Of a stretch of 42,449 bases of DNA, positions 24,154-42,449 are shown piece by piece. Below the pieces are notes generated by a model. The model did not search any database. It saw only the letters and a list, made by a program, of their open reading frames with translations, and had not been told where the DNA came from. This DNA comes from Candidatus Omnitrophota bacterium. Lineage in GTDB: Bacteria; Omnitrophota; Gorgyraeia; 2-01-FULL-45-10. The DNA lies in the NCBI GenBank assembly GCA_026387175.1, contig JAPLME010000012.1, forward strand, positions 203,429-245,877, in the 5' to 3' direction. Position 1 is the stretch's first letter; every line of letters starts with the position of its first letter. The translations under genes were made by a program, and so were the position numbers.

Positions 24154-24567
<414 letters not shown>

Positions 24568-32017: not shown

Positions 32018-35000
32018 ATGAAAACTAAAATCCTGATTCTAACATCCTTTTTAATGACTGCATTCCTTATATCTATTACCACGTTTACTGCGGCTCAAGC
32101 CGCAACAGCAGATAAGAGGATCTTAGTTGAATCTCCTATGGCCGATGCTCCTTATGATGAGATGGGCGAAATATCAGATTTTGCGACAACTCTGAAAGCA
32201 GACCCCGTAGATATTAACAAAGACGGTGTCATAGATGCTCGCGATATGGCCTCAGCACAGATCGGTTATGCGTTGGCGTTTAAGCATGCAAATAGCCTGC
32301 CGGCTGCGGTAAAGCGCAGCTTAGATAGGAATAGAGATGGCAAGGTTACGAAGATGGATCTGTTATTGGTGACCAGTAACATTGCTAAGGCTGAGGAAGT
32401 TTATGAACGCGTTAAAGTCCCTTCCTTCAATTTCGTTAATATGCCCATTTTTAACTATATCTTCGTAGGACAAGGTAGCCTGATGATCGCCAAGGACACC
32501 GTTCAAACATTTGATGAAGTCACCGACAATGGCGTATCTCAGCCGACCGATGTCGGTGAAAGTGCATTGGCAAAATTAGATATCAATGCTGACGGCGCTG
32601 TTGGTGAAGGGGATGCCATAGCATTCGGCGATATCTACACTGCTATTGAACGTGTAAACTATCATGACTTCAATTTTAACGGTGATGGGGGACGGATAGC
32701 TGATGAAAAATGGCTTGCCGTTTATAACTCAAATATTACCCCTGAGGCCAGAGCGAAGCTCGATATTGAAAAGGCCGGGGTGCTGGATGAGAGGGATGAG
32801 CAGGTATTCAGCAATATGATAATCAAGCTGGCGACAGTTATAGATTACGTTAAATATGCGACCGGGTCAAACTCATCCACCATGACAGACTGGGCTAAGG
32901 ATCAAAATGGAAATTTACAGTGTTCGTTCAAGGCCGGAAAAGGCCATGAACTGAAGGTGGTAATAAGGATAGATACCGGCGTTATATTGAACTCGAAGGA
33001 GACGTTGTTAACCTACGACAATAAGAGTAAACTGACCGTTGCGGAAAGCGCCACACGCACATACGATGTCAGCGGCACTCTTCAAAAAGCGGAATATTCT
33101 GCCAGTACCTATGATGGCAGCGGTAAGCTTGTTTCTCATGTTGCGGAGAGCGTGGAGCTAAGTACTGCTAGCGGAGAGATAATAAATAGCACTTATACAG
33201 AGGCCACCAATATTGACGCCGCCGGCACAATCATGGTAGAGGTCACTGAAAGCGCAGTTTTTGGAGCGGATGGTAAAGTGATCGGATCATCCATCACAGA
33301 ATCACATTATAATGCGTCCGGAGTATTGATAGAGCGTGTAGCCAGTGTATTAATACCCGATAACGCCGGCCGATCGGGCGCCGGAACAAAGTTATCAGTT
33401 AAGTACTCTATCGATGCGGCAGGCGCGGTGGTATCTACTAACGTATATAACGAGCAGGGAGGAAAAGTTGCAGCGTTAAGCGGAGAAGGCTATAAGGATC
33501 CAGATTCAATTATAGGGTCTGTGCAGGCCGCCAAAGATGCGGAGCTAAAAGCTGCCCAGGATGCCGCTGCATTAAAAGCTGCCCAAGACGTCGCTGCACT
33601 GAAAGCCGTCCATGATGCCGTTGCATTAAAAGCTGCCCAGGATGCTGCTGCACTGAAGGCCGCCAAGGATGCGGAGCTAAAAGCTGCCCAGGATGCTGCT
33701 GCACTGAAAGCCGCCAAAGATGCGGAGCTTAAGGCCACCCAGGAAGCTGAACAAAAAGCCGCCAAAGAGGCTGAGCTTAAAGCAGCCAAAGACGCGGAAC
33801 TGAAAGCAGCCAAGGAGGCAGAGCTTAAAGCTGCCCAGGAAGCTGAGATAAAGGCAGCCAAAGAAGCGGAACTGAAAGTCGCCAAAGAAGCTGAGCTTAA
33901 GGCCGCTCAAGAAGCGGAGCAAAAAGCCGCCAAAGAAGCCGAATTAAAGGCTGCTCAAGAGGCTGAGATAAAAGCCGCCAAAGACGCAGAACTTAAAGCA
34001 GCCAAGGAAGCAGAGCTTAAAGCTGCCCAGGAAGCTGAGATAAAGGCAGCCAAAGAAGCGGAACTGAAAGCAGTCAAGGAAGCAGAGCTTAAGGCCGCCC
34101 AGGAAGCAGATCTGAAGGCGGCAGAATTAAAAGCCGCCAAAGAAGCTGAGCTTAAAGCAGCCAAGGAAGCAGAGCTTAAAGCTGCCCAGGAAGCTGAGAT
34201 AAAGGCCGCCAAAGAAGCGGAACTGAAAGCCGCCAAAGAAGCTGAGCTTAAAGCAGCCAAAGACGCGGAACTGAAAGCAGCCAAGGAGGCAGAGCTTAAA
34301 GCTGCCCAGGAAGCTGAGATAAAAGCCGCCAAAGAAGCTGAGCGCAAAGCCGCTGAAACTGAAATGGCGAAGAGGCTACAGGAAGAAATATTATTAGCGC
34401 AAGAAAAGATTAAAGCTGCTCAAGAAGCAGAGCTTAAGGTTGCTCAAGAAGCAGAATTAAAAGCCGCCCAAGAAGCAGATCTGAAGGCGGCAGAATTAAA
34501 GGCAGCCAAAGAAGCAGAATTAAAGGCTGCTCAAGAGGCTGAGATAAAAGCAGCCAAAGACGCAGAACTGAAAGCCGCCGCAGATCTTAAGGCCGCCCAG
34601 GACGCAGCAGATAAAGCCGCCAAAGACGCGCAGCTGATTTCCGCCCCATTCAATGCCGTAAGCGACATGACAAAGAGGTTAAACGACGAAGTGGCGGCGA
34701 CGCAAGCGAAACTGAAAGCCGCCGCAGATCTTAAGGCCGCCCAGGACGCCGAAGTTGCCAGAATTGCCGCCGAACAGAAGGCCGCCCAGGACGCAGCAGA
34801 TAAAGCAGCTAAAGAAGCGGAACTTAAGGCCGCCCAGGACGCAGAAGCAGCCAAAGACGCGAAACTGAAAGCCGCCGCAGATCTTAAAGCTGCTCAGGAG
34901 GCTGATTTTAAAGCCGCCGCTAAAGTCGCGGAACTGAAAGCCGCCGATATAAAGAATAGCAATACACAGAATATGGGTAAAGCGAATAAAGAAGAGCTGG

Positions 35001-35524
35001 GCGCTCTGGAAATTATCCAGCCGGTTCTTGACGCAATTCAGGATAAATTGGTAGAAGCACTGTACGATCTAAAGATAGATAAGAAAGAGATTAGCGCTTC
35101 ACAATCTATCGACATGAACTCTAAGGCAACTGCTTTTGGAGTATTGCTAATGGCAGAAAACAAACAAGATGTGGGTAATAAAGAGACCGAAACCGGAGAA
35201 TCTATTCAGCCGGTTCTTGGGTTGGCCAGCGAGAATGCAGTAGCGCCGCGAGTGGATATCAAAGAGCTTTTAGCTCGCAAGATGATGCCGGATCCGTTAT
35301 ATGTAGAAGTATTACCATTACATGAGCCGCAGAAAGTAGATAAGAAGGAAGTTAATATCCCCGAACCTGCTCTGCCTGATACTGAGTTAGATCAGCGGAA
35401 AGCGGTAGAGGGGCAAGTGTATACACAAGCTACAGATAAGCGTTTCATTGGTGAGATGGCAAGTTTGCCAGATAAAGAAATGCTCCCGTTGCAAAAGAAA
35501 ATTAATGAAAAGAAACTGCAATAA
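32018..35524 (+). CDS. very large secreted protein: dockerin-like Ca loops, YD-like strands, long Ala/Lys/Glu helix
   Basis: 1168 residues, family not recognised. A signal peptide occupies 1-29 (cleavage near T-A-A-Q-A-A). EF-hand/dockerin-type loops are clear at 65-76 (D-I-N-K-D-G-V-I-D-A-R-D), 103-114 (D-R-N-R-D-G-K-V-T-K-M-D) and 188-199 (D-I-N-A-D-G-A-V-G-E-G-D), with a degenerate one near 220. Residues ~330-490 hold repeated Y-D-x-S-G-x-L strands rich in Ser/Thr. Residues ~503-978 are dominated by the octad K-A-A-K-E-A-E-L and variants, predicting one very long charged helix, TolA-like in composition. A folded ~190-residue tail ends in basic residues. There is no membrane anchor. It could span the periplasm or stand off the cell surface; this is inference. 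It has its own promoter. Confidence 0.75.
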   Translation: MKTKILILTSFLMTAFLISITTFTAAQAATADKRILVESPMADAPYDEMGEISDFATTLKADPVDINKDGVIDARDMASAQIGYALAFKHANSLPAAVKRSLDRNRDGKVTKMDLLLVTSNIAKAEEVYERVKVPSFNFVNMPIFNYIFVGQGSLMIAKDTVQTFDEVTDNGVSQPTDVGESALAKLDINADGAVGEGDAIAFGDIYTAIERVNYHDFNFNGDGGRIADEKWLAVYNSNITPEARAKLDIEKAGVLDERDEQVFSNMIIKLATVIDYVKYATGSNSSTMTDWAKDQNGNLQCSFKAGKGHELKVVIRIDTGVILNSKETLLTYDNKSKLTVAESATRTYDVSGTLQKAEYSASTYDGSGKLVSHVAESVELSTASGEIINSTYTEATNIDAAGTIMVEVTESAVFGADGKVIGSSITESHYNASGVLIERVASVLIPDNAGRSGAGTKLSVKYSIDAAGAVVSTNVYNEQGGKVAALSGEGYKDPDSIIGSVQAAKDAELKAAQDAAALKAAQDVAALKAVHDAVALKAAQDAAALKAAKDAELKAAQDAAALKAAKDAELKATQEAEQKAAKEAELKAAKDAELKAAKEAELKAAQEAEIKAAKEAELKVAKEAELKAAQEAEQKAAKEAELKAAQEAEIKAAKDAELKAAKEAELKAAQEAEIKAAKEAELKAVKEAELKAAQEADLKAAELKAAKEAELKAAKEAELKAAQEAEIKAAKEAELKAAKEAELKAAKDAELKAAKEAELKAAQEAEIKAAKEAERKAAETEMAKRLQEEILLAQEKIKAAQEAELKVAQEAELKAAQEADLKAAELKAAKEAELKAAQEAEIKAAKDAELKAAADLKAAQDAADKAAKDAQLISAPFNAVSDMTKRLNDEVAATQAKLKAAADLKAAQDAEVARIAAEQKAAQDAADKAAKEAELKAAQDAEAAKDAKLKAAADLKAAQEADFKAAAKVAELKAADIKNSNTQNMGKANKEELGALEIIQPVLDAIQDKLVEALYDLKIDKKEISASQSIDMNSKATAFGVLLMAENKQDVGNKETETGESIQPVLGLASENAVAPRVDIKELLARKMMPDPLYVEVLPLHEPQKVDKKEVNIPEPALPDTELDQRKAVEGQVYTQATDKRFIGEMASLPDKEMLPLQKKINEKKLQ
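33525..34950 (+). repeat. tandem 24-bp (octad) repeats encoding a long Ala/Lys/Glu helix
   Basis: About 1.4 kb built from degenerate 24-base units encoding E-L-K-A-A-K-E-A and relatives. Occasional indels of other lengths are present, and two short breaks occur: near 34360-34410 (E-T-E-M-A-K-R-L-Q) and near 34635-34700 (S-A-P-F-N-A-V-S-D). Longer blocks also recur, such as the segment around 34010-34060 against 34160-34210. The complementary strand is open and encodes Ala/Ser-rich mirror frames that are not genes. Confidence 0.88.
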
Positions 35525-38050: not shown

Positions 38051-38126
38051 GGTGGCTATAGTGTAAAGGTTAGCACAACAGACTGTGGCTCTGTTTGCAC
38101 GGGTTCGAATCCCGTTAGCCACCCCA
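38051..38126 (+). tRNA. tRNA-His (anticodon GTG), site of the accessory region boundary
   Basis: Acceptor GTGGCTA/TAGCCAC with an extra G(-1) at 38051 opposite discriminator C, the identity mark of tRNA-His, and an encoded CCA. Anticodon loop CTGTGGC gives GTG, and the T-arm is CGGG-TTCGAAT-CCCG. Its last six bases (ACCCCA) are the first six of the left inverted repeat. The recombinase gene on the other strand runs antisense through nearly the whole tRNA. Confidence 0.97.
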
Positions 38127-39549
38127 GTTTCTCCTCTCGCGAGTTTGCGAGTATTTTATATGGGTAAGTGTAAGAATAAGAAAGGCTTGCGTACGCAAAC
38201 CGGCGGTTCGAACAGATTTTTTTAATGTATTCGCACCGATCTTCGGCGCTTCCGGCCGATGCGATGTAACTGGCTTGGTGAGCAAGAGTTAGAAAATCCC
38301 GCATCGGTTCCAACCATTTTCCGTCAGTCCCTCCAGGATTTTCTAAATGGTGTGTTTTTTTATTCACAAGCGAGGCCTTCTTCGCTTTATACTCATCGGC
38401 AGAGATCGATCCGTCTACGAATAAATCCAGTAATCTCGATAACTGCTCGTCTATCTCTCGCAGTTTTGTCTCTCTAGTCAAATCGCTGTGTATCTTCGTG
38501 GCCTTCGCGAGTTCCTTCTCTCGGTCTAATTCAGCGAGCATAGCGTGATAGGTCTTATCATCTATAGATACCTTCGCGATGGCCTCGCTTATCATCAGGG
38601 CGAGCTTTTCCTCGCGGATATAGCCTTCCTGTGAACAGCCTGCCTTTCGCTTAGTGCAGTGGTAATATGCGTGGCCTTTCTTCTCCTCAGCAGTAATAAC
38701 GCAACCGCACTCACCGCATCGGATCAGCCCTCTAAATGCAAAGTAATGATTCTTGTATAACGTGGGCTTGCTTCGTGTCTTCAGCGATTCCTGCACTTTA
38801 TCGAACAGCTCCTTGGATATGATCGGCTCGTGCGCGCCGTGGAACAGCTCGCCTTTATAAAAAAACACACCATAGTAAAAAGCATTAGTCAGTATTCTAT
38901 GGACATTACTGATGGCAAGTGGCTTTTTACTTCTCTTGCTCACCAAGCCAAAAGCAGTCGCCAATTTTTGCAGCTCCTCAAGTGTGTGGCGGCCTTCGGC
39001 GCACAAGGCATATAGTTTCTGGATGAGTGGGGCGGTGGCAGTATCTATGAATATCTTTCCTTTGCCGTCGTTCAGATATCCTGTCGGTGCAAAGCCCGGA
39101 TATTCGCCGAGGCGCAGCTTCTCCCGAATGCCTCGCTTGGTATTCTCGCTTAGATTATCGACGTAATACTTTGACTGTCCGAAGATGATGTTCAACATGA
39201 ACTTGCCTTGTGCGCTATTGTCGAAGCGGTAAGTAGGGAAGCGCAAGTCAGCGATCTTTCCTGTGTCTACGAGGTAGATTATCTTACCGCCGTCTATGCT
39301 ATTGCGCGCAAGTCTGTCGGGATGCCATGAGATGATGCCGTCAGCGTCGCCTTTCTCGATCCTATGGATCATCTCATCGAAGATAGGCCTGCCGGGTATC
39401 TTGGCTGTGCGGGCTTCCTGAATAACCTCTACAATGTCCAATCGTTCTTTCCGGGCGTATTCTTGTACTTCGGTGAGCTGAGAGGGGATAGAGAGGATCT
39501 GCTTATCTTCCGTATCAGTGGACTTGCGCGCATAGAGAAAGTATCTCAT
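38056..39549 (-). CDS. large serine recombinase (resolvase/invertase superfamily)
   Basis: 497 residues. An N-terminal resolvase domain has catalytic Ser10 in Y-A-R-K-S-T-D-T-E and downstream W-H-P-D-R-L-A-R-N. It is followed by a Recombinase domain (~165-265), a zinc ribbon (C-G-E-C-G-C ... H-C-T-K-R-K-A-G-C) and a coiled-coil region (~335-400). A GGGAGG ribosome site precedes ATG 39549. The natural C-terminus probably ends near I-L-A-N-S-R-E-E-K; the last ~24 residues are read antisense through tRNA-His and look like a junction artefact. The last ~45 natural residues are encoded in the left inverted repeat and duplicated in the right one. It could integrate, excise or invert DNA. The geometry favours inversion between the flanking repeats, an inference. 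Confidence 0.92.
   Translation of the reverse strand: MRYFLYARKSTDTEDKQILSIPSQLTEVQEYARKERLDIVEVIQEARTAKIPGRPIFDEMIHRIEKGDADGIISWHPDRLARNSIDGGKIIYLVDTGKIADLRFPTYRFDNSAQGKFMLNIIFGQSKYYVDNLSENTKRGIREKLRLGEYPGFAPTGYLNDGKGKIFIDTATAPLIQKLYALCAEGRHTLEELQKLATAFGLVSKRSKKPLAISNVHRILTNAFYYGVFFYKGELFHGAHEPIISKELFDKVQESLKTRSKPTLYKNHYFAFRGLIRCGECGCVITAEEKKGHAYYHCTKRKAGCSQEGYIREEKLALMISEAIAKVSIDDKTYHAMLAELDREKELAKATKIHSDLTRETKLREIDEQLSRLLDLFVDGSISADEYKAKKASLVNKKTHHLENPGGTDGKWLEPMRDFLTLAHQASYIASAGSAEDRCEYIKKICSNRRFAYASLSYSYTYPYKILANSREEKLGWLTGFEPVQTEPQSVVLTFTL
38121..38264 (+). repeat. left arm of a 144-bp inverted repeat flanking the recombinase gene
   Basis: Reverse-complementary to 39567-39710. The outer 106 bp (38121-38226 with 39605-39710) are identical. 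Then 13 positions hold seven mismatches, and the inner 25 bp (38240-38264) are identical again. It contains the palindrome TTGCGTACGCAA (38187-38198) and CTCGCGAG. It encodes the recombinase C-terminus on the minus strand. Confidence 0.97.
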
Positions 39550-39566
39550 GTCATACCTCCCGTCCC

Positions 39567-39710
39567 TCGCATCGGCCGGAAGCGCCGAAGAGAAGGCCGA
39601 TTATATTAAAAAAATCTGTTCGAACCGCCGGTTTGCGTACGCAAGCCTTTCTTATTCTTACACTTACCCATATAAAATACTCGCAAACTCGCGAGAGGAG
39701 AAACTGGGGT
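39567..39710 (-). repeat. right arm of the 144-bp inverted repeat
   Basis: Inverted copy of 38121-38264 (137 of 144 positions match). It starts 18 bases beyond the recombinase start codon. The mirrored palindrome lies at 39633-39644. Outside the arm the sequence becomes unrelated to tRNA-His immediately after the shared ACCCCA. Confidence 0.97.
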
Positions 39711-39754
39711 CCCTATATCAAAAAGTCAGAACCTATTTTAAGGGGCACCCTTAA
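39567..39754 (+). pseudogene. inverted fragment of a recombinase 3' end
   Basis: On the plus strand this codes for the same C-terminal tail as the intact recombinase: S-A-G-S-A-E-E-K-A-D-Y-I-K-K-I against S-A-G-S-A-E-D-R-C-E-Y-I-K-K-I, then identical until E-E-K-L-G. A different ending of ~16 residues runs to the TAG/TAA at 39754. The four replaced residues correspond to the clustered DNA mismatches, so this is a slightly diverged paralogue tail. It either remains from a second recombinase or serves as the alternative 3' end after inversion. Confidence 0.75.
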
Positions 39755-39795
39755 AAATAAAACCTTTCAACGCTGGCTCGGCATATCGCCTGCCT

Positions 39796-39837
39796 GCTCG
39801 CTGTAGCTAAACAAGTAGAACAACAGCTATAGCAGGC
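39796..39837. repeat. imperfect hairpin in the spacer after the recombinase
   Basis: GCTGTAGCT (39800-39808) pairs with AGCTATAGC (39825-39833, one G-U) around a 16-base loop; flanking bases may extend it. It is part of the 39711-40178 spacer, in which no gene is seen. Confidence 0.4.
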
Positions 39838-39862
39838 TCTATCGCGTCCTCGCCCTACCCGC

Positions 39863-39901
39863 CGTCATTGCGAGGAGGCCGAAGGCCGACGAAGCAATCT
39901 C
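39863..39901. repeat. dispersed palindromic intergenic repeat of the CGTCATTGCGAGG type
   Basis: The segment opens with CGTCATTGCGAGGAGGCC and closes with GAAGCAATCTC. ATTGC (39867-39871) pairs with GCAAT (39894-39898), and the centre is GGCC-GAA-GGCC. Sequences of this form are scattered in many bacterial genomes as short palindromic repeats; that recognition is from memory. No coding role is apparent. Confidence 0.6.
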
Positions 39902-39989
39902 TACCACAGGCTCGTCCGCACCCGCCTGCTACAAGCCAGAATGAACTCGTGGACGGCGGGTTGCCGAGCCCCCACAACACAAGACCCGA

Positions 39990-40036
39990 GGGCGAAAAGG
40001 TAAATTTTGGGGCGCGGCAAAATTTGCCTTTCGCCC
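39990..40036. repeat. long near-perfect hairpin just before the XRE promoter region
   Basis: Left arm 39990-40009 and right arm 40018-40036 pair over about 18 positions, with one extra A and one T/C difference, around the loop GGGCGCGG. The arms run from GGGCGAAA to AAATTTTG and back. With no T-run, it looks more like a palindromic element than a terminator. It marks the point where base composition turns AT-rich. Confidence 0.6.
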
Positions 40037-40119
40037 AATGACTCAAAATATCAAAAATGCCTCAGGAGGTAGATTTTGGCTAAAAAAGCACGTTGTTATG
40101 GTAAAATAAGTCAGATAAA

Positions 40120-40178: not shown

Positions 40179-40370
40179 ATGATCGGAAAAAATATTAAAA
40201 AAATAAGACAGCAAAAAAATTTATCCCAAGAAAAGCTAGCCCGCCTAACTGATATATCCCTTAATACTTTGACAAAAATCGAATCTGGTTTTACAAAAAG
40301 ACCATCCATCCAGACCATTTATAAAATTGCTAAAGCGCTCGAAGTGCCGATGGAGAATCTAGTAGAGTGA
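40179..40370 (+). CDS. small XRE-family (Cro/CI-type) transcriptional regulator
   Basis: 63 residues, almost entirely one helix-turn-helix domain: I-K-K-I-R-Q-Q-K-N-L-S-Q-E-K-L-A at the start, recognition helix around S-L-N-T-L-T-K-I-E-S-G, then P-S-I-Q-T-I-Y-K-I-A-K-A-L-E-V. Such stand-alone regulators often control restriction or other defence genes. A palindrome overlaps its promoter, and the large nuclease/NTPase gene starts 27 bases downstream with its own ribosome site, so one regulated two-gene operon is likely. The codon choice is AT-rich, unlike the chromosomal genes to the left. Confidence 0.92.
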   Translation: MIGKNIKKIRQQKNLSQEKLARLTDISLNTLTKIESGFTKRPSIQTIYKIAKALEVPMENLVE

Positions 40371-40397: not shown

Positions 40398-42449
40398 ATG
40401 TTAGATTGGTTAAAAATTGATAATGAAAAGACATTTCAACGACTGATTAGTCACCTCGTTTCTTTAGAATGTCATACTCCGGGGTTTTTGCCATCAAGTC
40501 CATATATTGGTGCGGATGGCGGATATGATGCTTATGTTGATAATTACGCAGAAGAGAACTTGTCTGGTGATATTTGCATTCAAGCTAAATTCACCAAACA
40601 TTCTTTAAAACAAGCCTATGAATATTTGTGCAATGAAGTGAAAAAAGAACTTATTAAAGCGGATAAGAATAAAATAACCCATTTGATTATAGTAACAAAT
40701 GCCGAATTAAATGTGGATTATATCAAAAAGCTTACAGCTCTTAATAGCTATAAAGGCATTTCCATGTGGATATGGGATCGCGAAAAATTAACTATCAAAA
40801 TCGAAAAACAGCCTTTCTTGCGAAGCAATTTTTTTGGTAGTTCTTCTATTCTCTCGTTTGTTCCGTTGTCTGTATTCTTTGAAGAAGCAGATACGAAATC
40901 TGATATTAATACTGGAAAAAAAATTAAAACAATTGAAGATAGGTTTAATGAAATAATATCTTTTTTAAAGAATGATAATTTAAAAATTTTTGTAATCCAT
41001 GCTCCTGGAGGATTTGGAAAGAGTCATTTTTTACGAGAATTTCCAAATCGAATAAGAAATTTAGGTATTACTAGAGAGATTTGGTTTATACGAGATGGTA
41101 TTCGCGATATTCGAGACGCATTTAATGATGAAATTGGCGTTAGGGAAAGTATAAAAGAGAAACACAGATATATTTTTGTAATAGATGATGCTGATCGCTC
41201 GGACGATATAAAAGACATCTTGTATTGTGTAACAAGATCAGGAATTGATGCAAAAATTGTTATATCACTCCGAACAGCAGGTATTTTTGCCTTAGAGGAA
41301 ACATTAGTTTCTGCTAAATGTAAGGATCTTGCCGTAGTTACGTCTATTCCCCAATGGTCGGACAATGAGCTGAAAACGCTTTTAAGAACTGTTTCGCAAA
41401 AGGATAAGATTGATGACGAAAGTGAGATAATCCGAAGATACCCTAACCCCTTTTTTATAGTTCTCATAGGATTAAACATGAAGGGAAAAAGTAAATATGA
41501 TTTTCAATCAACTAAGCAAAATATTCTTCAATCTTTGCTAAATGATACTCGTCAGATAGTTAAATCAACACAGCTTAATATTAATGACTTGCTCCTCAAT
41601 TTAACCTTAATAATACCTATAAATATAACTGATAACCAAACAATAACTAAACTTGCTCAATGTCTAAATGTTGACGATCAGCTAATGAGAGATATCCTGG
41701 GAAAACTTATCAAAGGCGGAGTATTATGTTCCACAGGAAATATTTTGAGATTTTTACCAGATATGATAGGAGATGTATATTTATTAGAAACGATGCAATC
41801 GCTTAAGGAAAAGCAACGAAAAGAGGTTTTCTTATATTGGTTTGACACGCATTCAAAAAATATTTTTTGTAATTTAGGTGCAACACTAAGGTACGGTGAA
41901 AAAGATTCATTAATGCCAATAGTTATAGATGTTATAGAAGGATGGATAAATAATTACAGCAAATATGACAGCTATGACAAAAGGCGGATACTAGAAAATC
42001 TTGAAGATATATGCAATATCGTACCTGATAAAACAATAAACTTGCTATGGACATTTATAGAAGGTGGCGATTTGAATACCGACTCCTATGGCCCAATTAT
42101 TTCGCGACTAATTTATGGCAGTATCGGTAGAAAAGAAATTGTGGATATTATTGAGGGATTAAGGGCAAGGGTAAAAGAAGGCACATTTAGTAACTATAAA
42201 TATGATACTTTGGCCAAGGAAACAGTATCGCCTTTGCATAACAACATTGAGAAACAGGTGATGCCAATATTAACTATTATTGAGAAGTCATTAAAAAGTA
42301 ATAAGCCTATGATAGATTTTTCAAAAGCAGCTTTAAAAGAAGTCTTAGCATCGTCCCACGAATGGTCCCGCTCTTCATATATGAAAATGGAGATCGGAAG
42401 TCGTGCGCTAAGAGCGACGGACTCGGTATTGGCAATGAGAAATAAGGCA
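40398..42449 (+). CDS. Mrr-like nuclease fused to a STAND-type P-loop NTPase, candidate defence protein (3' end outside window)
   Basis: Open from ATG 40398 (GGAG seven bases upstream) to the right edge: 684 codons without a stop, so the C-terminus is missing. Residues 1-~110 resemble the Mrr-type PD-(D/E)xK fold: T-F-Q-R-L-I-S-H-L, then G-A-D40-G-G-Y-D44 and I-C-I-Q62-A-K64-F (the Q-x-K variant of the catalytic strand). Residues ~195-400 form a P-loop NTPase: Walker A A-P-G-G-F-G-K208-S and Walker B Y-I-F-V-I-D263-D264-A-D-R, with a later L-R-T-A-G sensor-like motif. A winged-helix-like region and a long helical part follow, as in STAND proteins, where the C-terminus senses ligand. Avs-type antiviral STANDs share this effector-NTPase-sensor order. 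Function is inference; the domain calls are fairly firm. Confidence 0.8.
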   Translation, partial: MLDWLKIDNEKTFQRLISHLVSLECHTPGFLPSSPYIGADGGYDAYVDNYAEENLSGDICIQAKFTKHSLKQAYEYLCNEVKKELIKADKNKITHLIIVTNAELNVDYIKKLTALNSYKGISMWIWDREKLTIKIEKQPFLRSNFFGSSSILSFVPLSVFFEEADTKSDINTGKKIKTIEDRFNEIISFLKNDNLKIFVIHAPGGFGKSHFLREFPNRIRNLGITREIWFIRDGIRDIRDAFNDEIGVRESIKEKHRYIFVIDDADRSDDIKDILYCVTRSGIDAKIVISLRTAGIFALEETLVSAKCKDLAVVTSIPQWSDNELKTLLRTVSQKDKIDDESEIIRRYPNPFFIVLIGLNMKGKSKYDFQSTKQNILQSLLNDTRQIVKSTQLNINDLLLNLTLIIPINITDNQTITKLAQCLNVDDQLMRDILGKLIKGGVLCSTGNILRFLPDMIGDVYLLETMQSLKEKQRKEVFLYWFDTHSKNIFCNLGATLRYGEKDSLMPIVIDVIEGWINNYSKYDSYDKRRILENLEDICNIVPDKTINLLWTFIEGGDLNTDSYGPIISRLIYGSIGRKEIVDIIEGLRARVKEGTFSNYKYDTLAKETVSPLHNNIEKQVMPILTIIEKSLKSNKPMIDFSKAALKEVLASSHEWSRSSYMKMEIGSRALRATDSVLAMRNKA

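Follow-up and report, generated by a model that had tools for sequence, protein, structure and literature searches.

Why should a recombinase gene lie between two near-identical inverted repeats that encode the end of its own product twice? This question is raised by a locus in the window, the 42,449-nucleotide stretch of a Candidatus Omnitrophota contig (GenBank assembly GCA_026387175.1, contig JAPLME010000012.1) that was analysed here. The original prediction was of a recombinase cassette acting as a self-preserving invertible switch. We find instead that the gene probably belongs to the integrase module of a larger element, a small genomic island that targets a tRNA gene.

The two predicted arms are genuine and beyond chance. 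A BLAST self-match (E = 3.9e-62) recovers 144 bp that are identical at 137 positions (95.1%), with a perfect outer block of 106 bp and all 7 mismatches at arm positions 107-119. As was also foreseen, the right arm holds the same C-terminal codons of the gene in inverted orientation, ending 17 bp before its ATG. What had been overlooked is a tRNA-His gene (Table 1). The left arm starts 6 bp inside the 3′ end of this tRNA, and the last 6 bp of the tRNA, ACCCCA, form the outer end of both arms. The claim that the gene ends within the left arm holds in part: the last coding stretch does lie there, but the 497-aa open reading frame reaches its stop only at 38056, within the antisense strand of tRNA-His. 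The product carries the Resolvase catalytic, Recombinase and Zn-ribbon domains (Pfam) of a large serine recombinase, and its relatives of solved structure include the A118 integrase, with chains matched at E about 1e-7.

Table 1. Features of the integrase module and of the adjoining cargo (window positions)
Feature	Position	Strand	Basis or remark
tRNA-His (GTG), integration target	38052..38126	+	ARAGORN; 5-bp offset test; site-absent relatives
attB-type half (B) of attL, tRNA-His T-arm GGTTCGAA	within 38052..38126	+	
Core ACCCCA at attL	38121..38126	+	Common to both arms
P′ arm, tRNA-proximal copy	38121..38264	+	Overlaps int 3′ end
Large serine integrase ORF (int)	38056..39549	-	Pfam; last codons read from core and antisense tRNA strand
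Open frame with duplicated int C-terminus and attP-encoded tail ...KLGSLYQKVRTYFKGHP	39548..39754	+	L042 2933-3139
P′ arm, inverted second copy	39567..39710	-	Directly upstream of int
TATAAT in second arm, possible int -10 box (weak)	39600..39605	-	Not among promoter-scan hits
Core of spare attP (U site)	39705..39710	-	
P half of spare attP	39711..39735	-	Motif GTTCTGAC at 39725-39732 (minus strand)
P arm (at least to 40084)	39711..40084		
Hairpin TTTTAAGGGGCACCCTTAAAA adjoining P half, possible terminator	39733..39761		By eye; not among hits of terminator scan
Cro/C-type HTH gene, first of cargo module	40179..40370	+	
1286-aa cargo protein, start of cargo	40398..42449	+	Cargo extends past window to about C12:250900

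The identity of the repeats can be read from the spacing of their half-sites. Of the 40 canonical loci described below, 30 have a motif (GTTCGAAC) outside the second arm whose end is 21 bases away from the CCA end, the distance being 16 bases for the corresponding motif in the tRNA T-arm. The outer-half motif is displaced outward by exactly 5 bp in these 30 of 40 loci, compared with 4% for shuffled sequence; in four loci, including that of the window, it lies at 20, which for the window is an offset of +4 (gap 20 vs 16). Rutherford et al. (PMC3783163) place the motif for the zinc domain 5 bp nearer the centre in attB than in attP. Because the offset agrees with this published rule, we take attL to be the tRNA junction, and a complete attP to lie at the outer end of the second arm, although conservation of the P′-side motif is poor. 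As read from their half-sites and core, the arms are inverted copies of the attachment-site region, which overlaps the 3′ end of int. Rather than a single attP being consumed on integration, the loci read still have a P-core-P′ site next to int and, judged by these elements, the integrated island retains an intact spare attP.

The predicted layout of a repeat plus an encoded tail was sought in other genomes and recurs widely in Omnitrophota. Searches of relatives, of the class, of one family and of the phylum yielded a final survey of 68 loci, all from draft or metagenome assemblies. Forty were called automatically with a tRNA at the int 3′ end (they include L113 and L114, whose sequences are apparently identical), one is flipped, nine have arms and no tRNA call, and 18 are armless, a group that includes contig edges, decayed copies and distant integrases. 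Among the nine, one is a second flip, several look canonical on inspection, their tRNA or arms having decayed, and L173 is ambiguous. The 40 loci occupy genes for tRNA-His, Ser, Ala, Asp, Arg and Pro. Arm lengths are mostly 91-162 bp, and in nearly all loci the arms start at the last six bases of the tRNA, so the core varies with the target (CCGCCA, ACCCCA, CCACCA, CGACCA). The window genome itself contains a second integrase module of the same clade (G000:C11:204812-206164; L004, L005, L043), which is located at a tRNA-Ser(TGA) and has 93-bp arms that are 98.9% identical. Viral, plasmid and phage collections returned only integrases of 26-39% identity, and no extrachromosomal form was seen.

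The unusual gene end is equally recurrent. In 38 of the 40 loci, the integrase frame is open as far as the core and runs on toward the antisense tRNA, and the same frame is open in the inverted second arm in 36 of the 40, with its stop usually in or just past the P half. Among armless integrases of the sister group, five of six likewise terminate inside the tRNA, and the overlap of int with the tRNA is therefore probably older than the duplication of the arm. An integrase tree (midpoint root, with some long branches meeting) places the arm-bearing loci in one branch of 55 rows with support of 100/98, made up of 48 with arms, 5 at contig edges and 2 armless; seven armless integrases fall outside it. 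Furthermore, in an identity comparison, the first arm of a locus is matched more closely by its own second arm than by the first arm of any other locus in 36 of 39 cases, a pattern that at the level of sequence demonstrates concerted evolution of the arms of a locus.

Six complete islands (G015:C4, G015:C2, G021, G154, G243:C3 and G247:C69), 4.7-12.4 kb in size, place the module in its wider setting. Each has an attL, an inverted middle attP, an attR and inverted P arms, in the order tRNA[B]-core-P′arm-int-P′arm(inverted)-core-P arm-HTH-cargo-P arm(inverted)-core-B′. The outer half and core are repeated downstream in direct orientation to the tRNA in G015:C4, G015:C2, G021, G154 and G243:C3. 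The distal copy is joined to the middle site by inverted repeats of 469 bp (98%, G015:C4), 374 bp (99.7%, G015:C2), 337 bp (88%, G021), 465 bp (99.8%, G154), 430 bp (88%, G243:C3) and 255 bp (93%, G247:C69). Thus, the direct repeats that the original prediction expected of integration, and took to be missing, are present after all as the core at attL and at a distant attR in complete relatives; the inverted arms are an additional duplication of attP.

Relatives that lack the island reveal the same neighborhoods. In G018, a tRNA-Ser(GCT) lies 91 bp before the phosphoesterase gene that is located just past attR in G015:C4, and in G023, a congener of G021, the operon found beyond attR in G021 comes after tRNA-His. 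This site-absent evidence is synteny, the exact attB bases not being recovered; for the genus of G154, a joined-flank search for the exact attB matched the two sides apart. The six complete relatives combine attL and attR with a repeated core, with G018 and G023 as site-absent genomes, and the window's own attR lies off the contig. In G298, the closest relative of G154, the sequence after tRNA-His (L184, G298:C1, 1765-1885) matches G154 cargo just past the HTH gene, and the stretch read of this locus holds no integrase match. It is probably a decayed island.

For the window genome (G000), a pattern search for its own attR gave the middle site only. Window positions 39965-40084 are an inverted, 100% identical copy of the last 120 bp of contig C12 (C12:250901-251020), and the cargo runs up to the end of C12, inside the P-arm repeat, so that the attR was not recovered. 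A partial match on contig C10 to the tRNA-His tail region was considered as this attR and rejected, as it comes without a P half. That match (G000:C10:24130-24216; L181 1501-1587) is a partial tRNA-His tail whose downstream sequence resembles that after tRNA-His in G023, and it is possibly the relic of a moved site.

The cargo differs between islands. In the window, PADLOC and Pfam return a weak match of the 1286-aa protein to an nSTAND NTPase (E 1.6e-5, below the curated cut-off), a partial match to PDC-S60 and an HTH of the control-protein type. Translations examined by eye indicate a DNA methyltransferase-like gene with a companion in G015:C2, ATPase-like genes in G021, and methyltransferase and helicase-like genes elsewhere. 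A defence role for the cargo is plausible. Two other features of the window were observed outside the island: a 1168-aa open reading frame at 32018-35524 with long alanine/lysine/glutamate repeats (KAAKEAELKAAQEAE type), likely a coiled coil, and a tmRNA gene at 24154-24567 whose predicted tag peptide is unusually long (31 residues), a call that may be misread.

The original prediction also held that inversion between the arms would leave a complete recombinase with only its last residues changed, and two natural flipped isomers bear this out. In G247:C69, tRNA-Ser lies at the int 5′ end, the integrase bears the attP-encoded tail, and the HTH gene and cargo keep their usual orientation; a mis-join is less likely here, since the two arms are not identical. 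G392:C47 is also flipped, but its contig starts inside an identical arm. The two sit in separate parts of the tree. In all eleven islands where it was found, G247 included, the HTH gene lies beside the middle site and reads away from the tRNA, and so the flip in G247 is confined to the integrase module. Given these two isomers, the module has inverted, but rarely. Both orientations are seen across genomes, and canonical loci outnumber flipped ones by 40 to 2. The part of the switch claim that survives is the existence of both orientations; with so strong a bias, the known copies show neither an even flip-flop nor free flipping. As judged from these assemblies, the bias reflects either rare flipping or a short life of the flipped copies.

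These observations suggest a mechanism. A large serine integrase would insert the island where tRNA-His ends. The attP of this enzyme overlaps the 3′ end of int, and the region as a whole, with P′ arm, core and P arm, occurs again, inverted, upstream of int. The arms would be kept alike by homologous recombination or by gene conversion, perhaps with help from the integrase, and the same arm-to-arm recombination would occasionally invert the integrase module. Because the arms carry the C-terminal codons of int, the enzyme is complete in either orientation. We consider it likely that this overall explanation, a tRNA-targeted integrase module with an inverted duplicate attP whose arms are kept alike and which is occasionally inverted, is correct.

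A competing and less probable explanation is that the second arm is only a regulatory copy. The integrase would bind the spare attP upstream of its own gene and repress itself, incidental gene conversion would keep the arms alike, and the inversions would be rare accidents without function. The 40-to-2 orientation speaks for this proposal. The second arm comes to within 12-25 bp of the int start codon in several loci, which puts the promoter in or beyond the arm. The window's second arm contains a TATAAT that is missing from the first arm because of the clustered mismatches, and the int promoter may lie in the second arm. Against a purely regulatory copy, a half-site needs only about 25 bp, yet the arms are far longer in most loci, and their C-terminal frame is open in 36 of 40. 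Even so, gene conversion by itself could account for this.

The region between the second arm and int varies among loci. In L084, L086, L090, L092 and others, an AT-rich hairpin (GTCATTTAATTTTGAG...CTCAAAATTAAATGAC type) separates the arm from the start codon. In a tRNA-Asp group (L087, G340:C1; L097, G376:C33), the separation is about 300 bp, and this sequence resembles, by reading, the end of a small DNA-binding protein of the excisionase type. It is a candidate for a directionality factor encoded inside the module.

Returning to the module with an inverted duplicate attP, what might its two orientations do? By sequence, inversion replaces the tail encoded by the antisense tRNA with one encoded by attP, and turns the gene from antisense to co-directional with the tRNA. 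We hypothesize that the tail swap or the orientation might have a regulatory role; the usual orientation would most likely correspond to rest and the flipped one to greater activity. The fuller proposal is that integration would strip the attP-encoded tail and leave the gene antisense to the tRNA (resting), and that inversion would restore the tail and co-directionality (mobile). As a two-state switch, this is rather unlikely. If true, the island would set its own mobility by flipping its integrase. Other site pairings, such as attP x attP, are not recombined by serine integrases according to PMC3783163, and by this rule an integrase-driven inversion is itself doubtful.

The order of modules in the complete islands predicts that in an excised circle the integrase and cargo modules would be separated by two inverted attP regions. 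Perhaps these regions serve the circle, with flipping during replication raising copy number as in the yeast 2-micron plasmid. Such a circle would comprise two unique regions and, separating them, a pair of inverted repeats (up to ~600 bp) that each contain a full attachment site, and both isomers do exist. However, attP x attP is no normal substrate, orientation is near-fixed, and no replication gene was recognised in a non-exhaustive reading of the cargo by eye, all of which makes this role very improbable.

Two further explanations are extremely unlikely. Although tRNA sites are insertion hotspots, a second arm left over from the integrase 3′ end of another, neighbouring element is contradicted by the same position, tRNA-specific core and near-identity of the arms in 40 loci and by the greater likeness of a locus's own arms than of any between-locus pair (36/39). 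An ordinary transposon with terminal inverted repeats, or an assembly artefact, would fit two inverted arms flanking one recombinase gene, but barring read-level evidence is contradicted by complete relatives that extend past the second arm to attR, by island-free relatives, and by arms that are not identical to each other in many loci and are seen again in independent assemblies, including some with few contigs.

Serine integrases are in wide use as tools, and their one-way behaviour depends on the consumption of attP at integration. A clade that keeps an intact, inverted attP by its integrase, encodes the enzyme's end there and exists as two isomers would suggest built-in control of direction and mobility. 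The loci also supply a set of natural integrases, at many tRNA genes, whose att sites can be read, and the islands mark entry points of variable cargo, such as methyltransferase and ATPase genes, into Omnitrophota genomes. We found no description of an inverted or duplicated attP around an integrase gene in the open-access papers searched, which is not proof of absence.

Several known systems share parts of this arrangement. Hin/Gin-type segments have a serine recombinase gene within or beside the inverting segment, a likeness to the module described here, and use small resolvase-type enzymes and short sites. They differ in that there is no integration and no tRNA target, and their sites do not encode the enzyme's end. 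The yeast 2-micron plasmid is eukaryotic and has inverted repeats with the target of its recombinase, Flp, and two isomers. The likeness is in two unique regions between inverted, target-bearing repeats and in the two isomers, with the circle only inferred here; the differences are that Flp is a tyrosine recombinase and that the plasmid is not integrated at a tRNA gene. The A118/LI family, phiC31 and Bxb1 are alike in domain set, in attL and attR with a short core and in the zinc-domain motif, which is shifted by 5 bp between attP and attB halves (PMC3783163). Here, in contrast to these systems, attP is doubled and inverted around int, an intact attP is kept when integrated, and the int frame crosses the core. 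In mycobacteriophage BPs, attP lies inside a coding gene, that of the phage repressor, and integration alters the C-terminus of the protein. Integration-dependent immunity has been described for this phage (PMC4557955). The islands share with BPs an attP within a gene and a consequent change of C-terminus, but here the gene is that of the integrase, and a second, inverted copy of the gene end is present.
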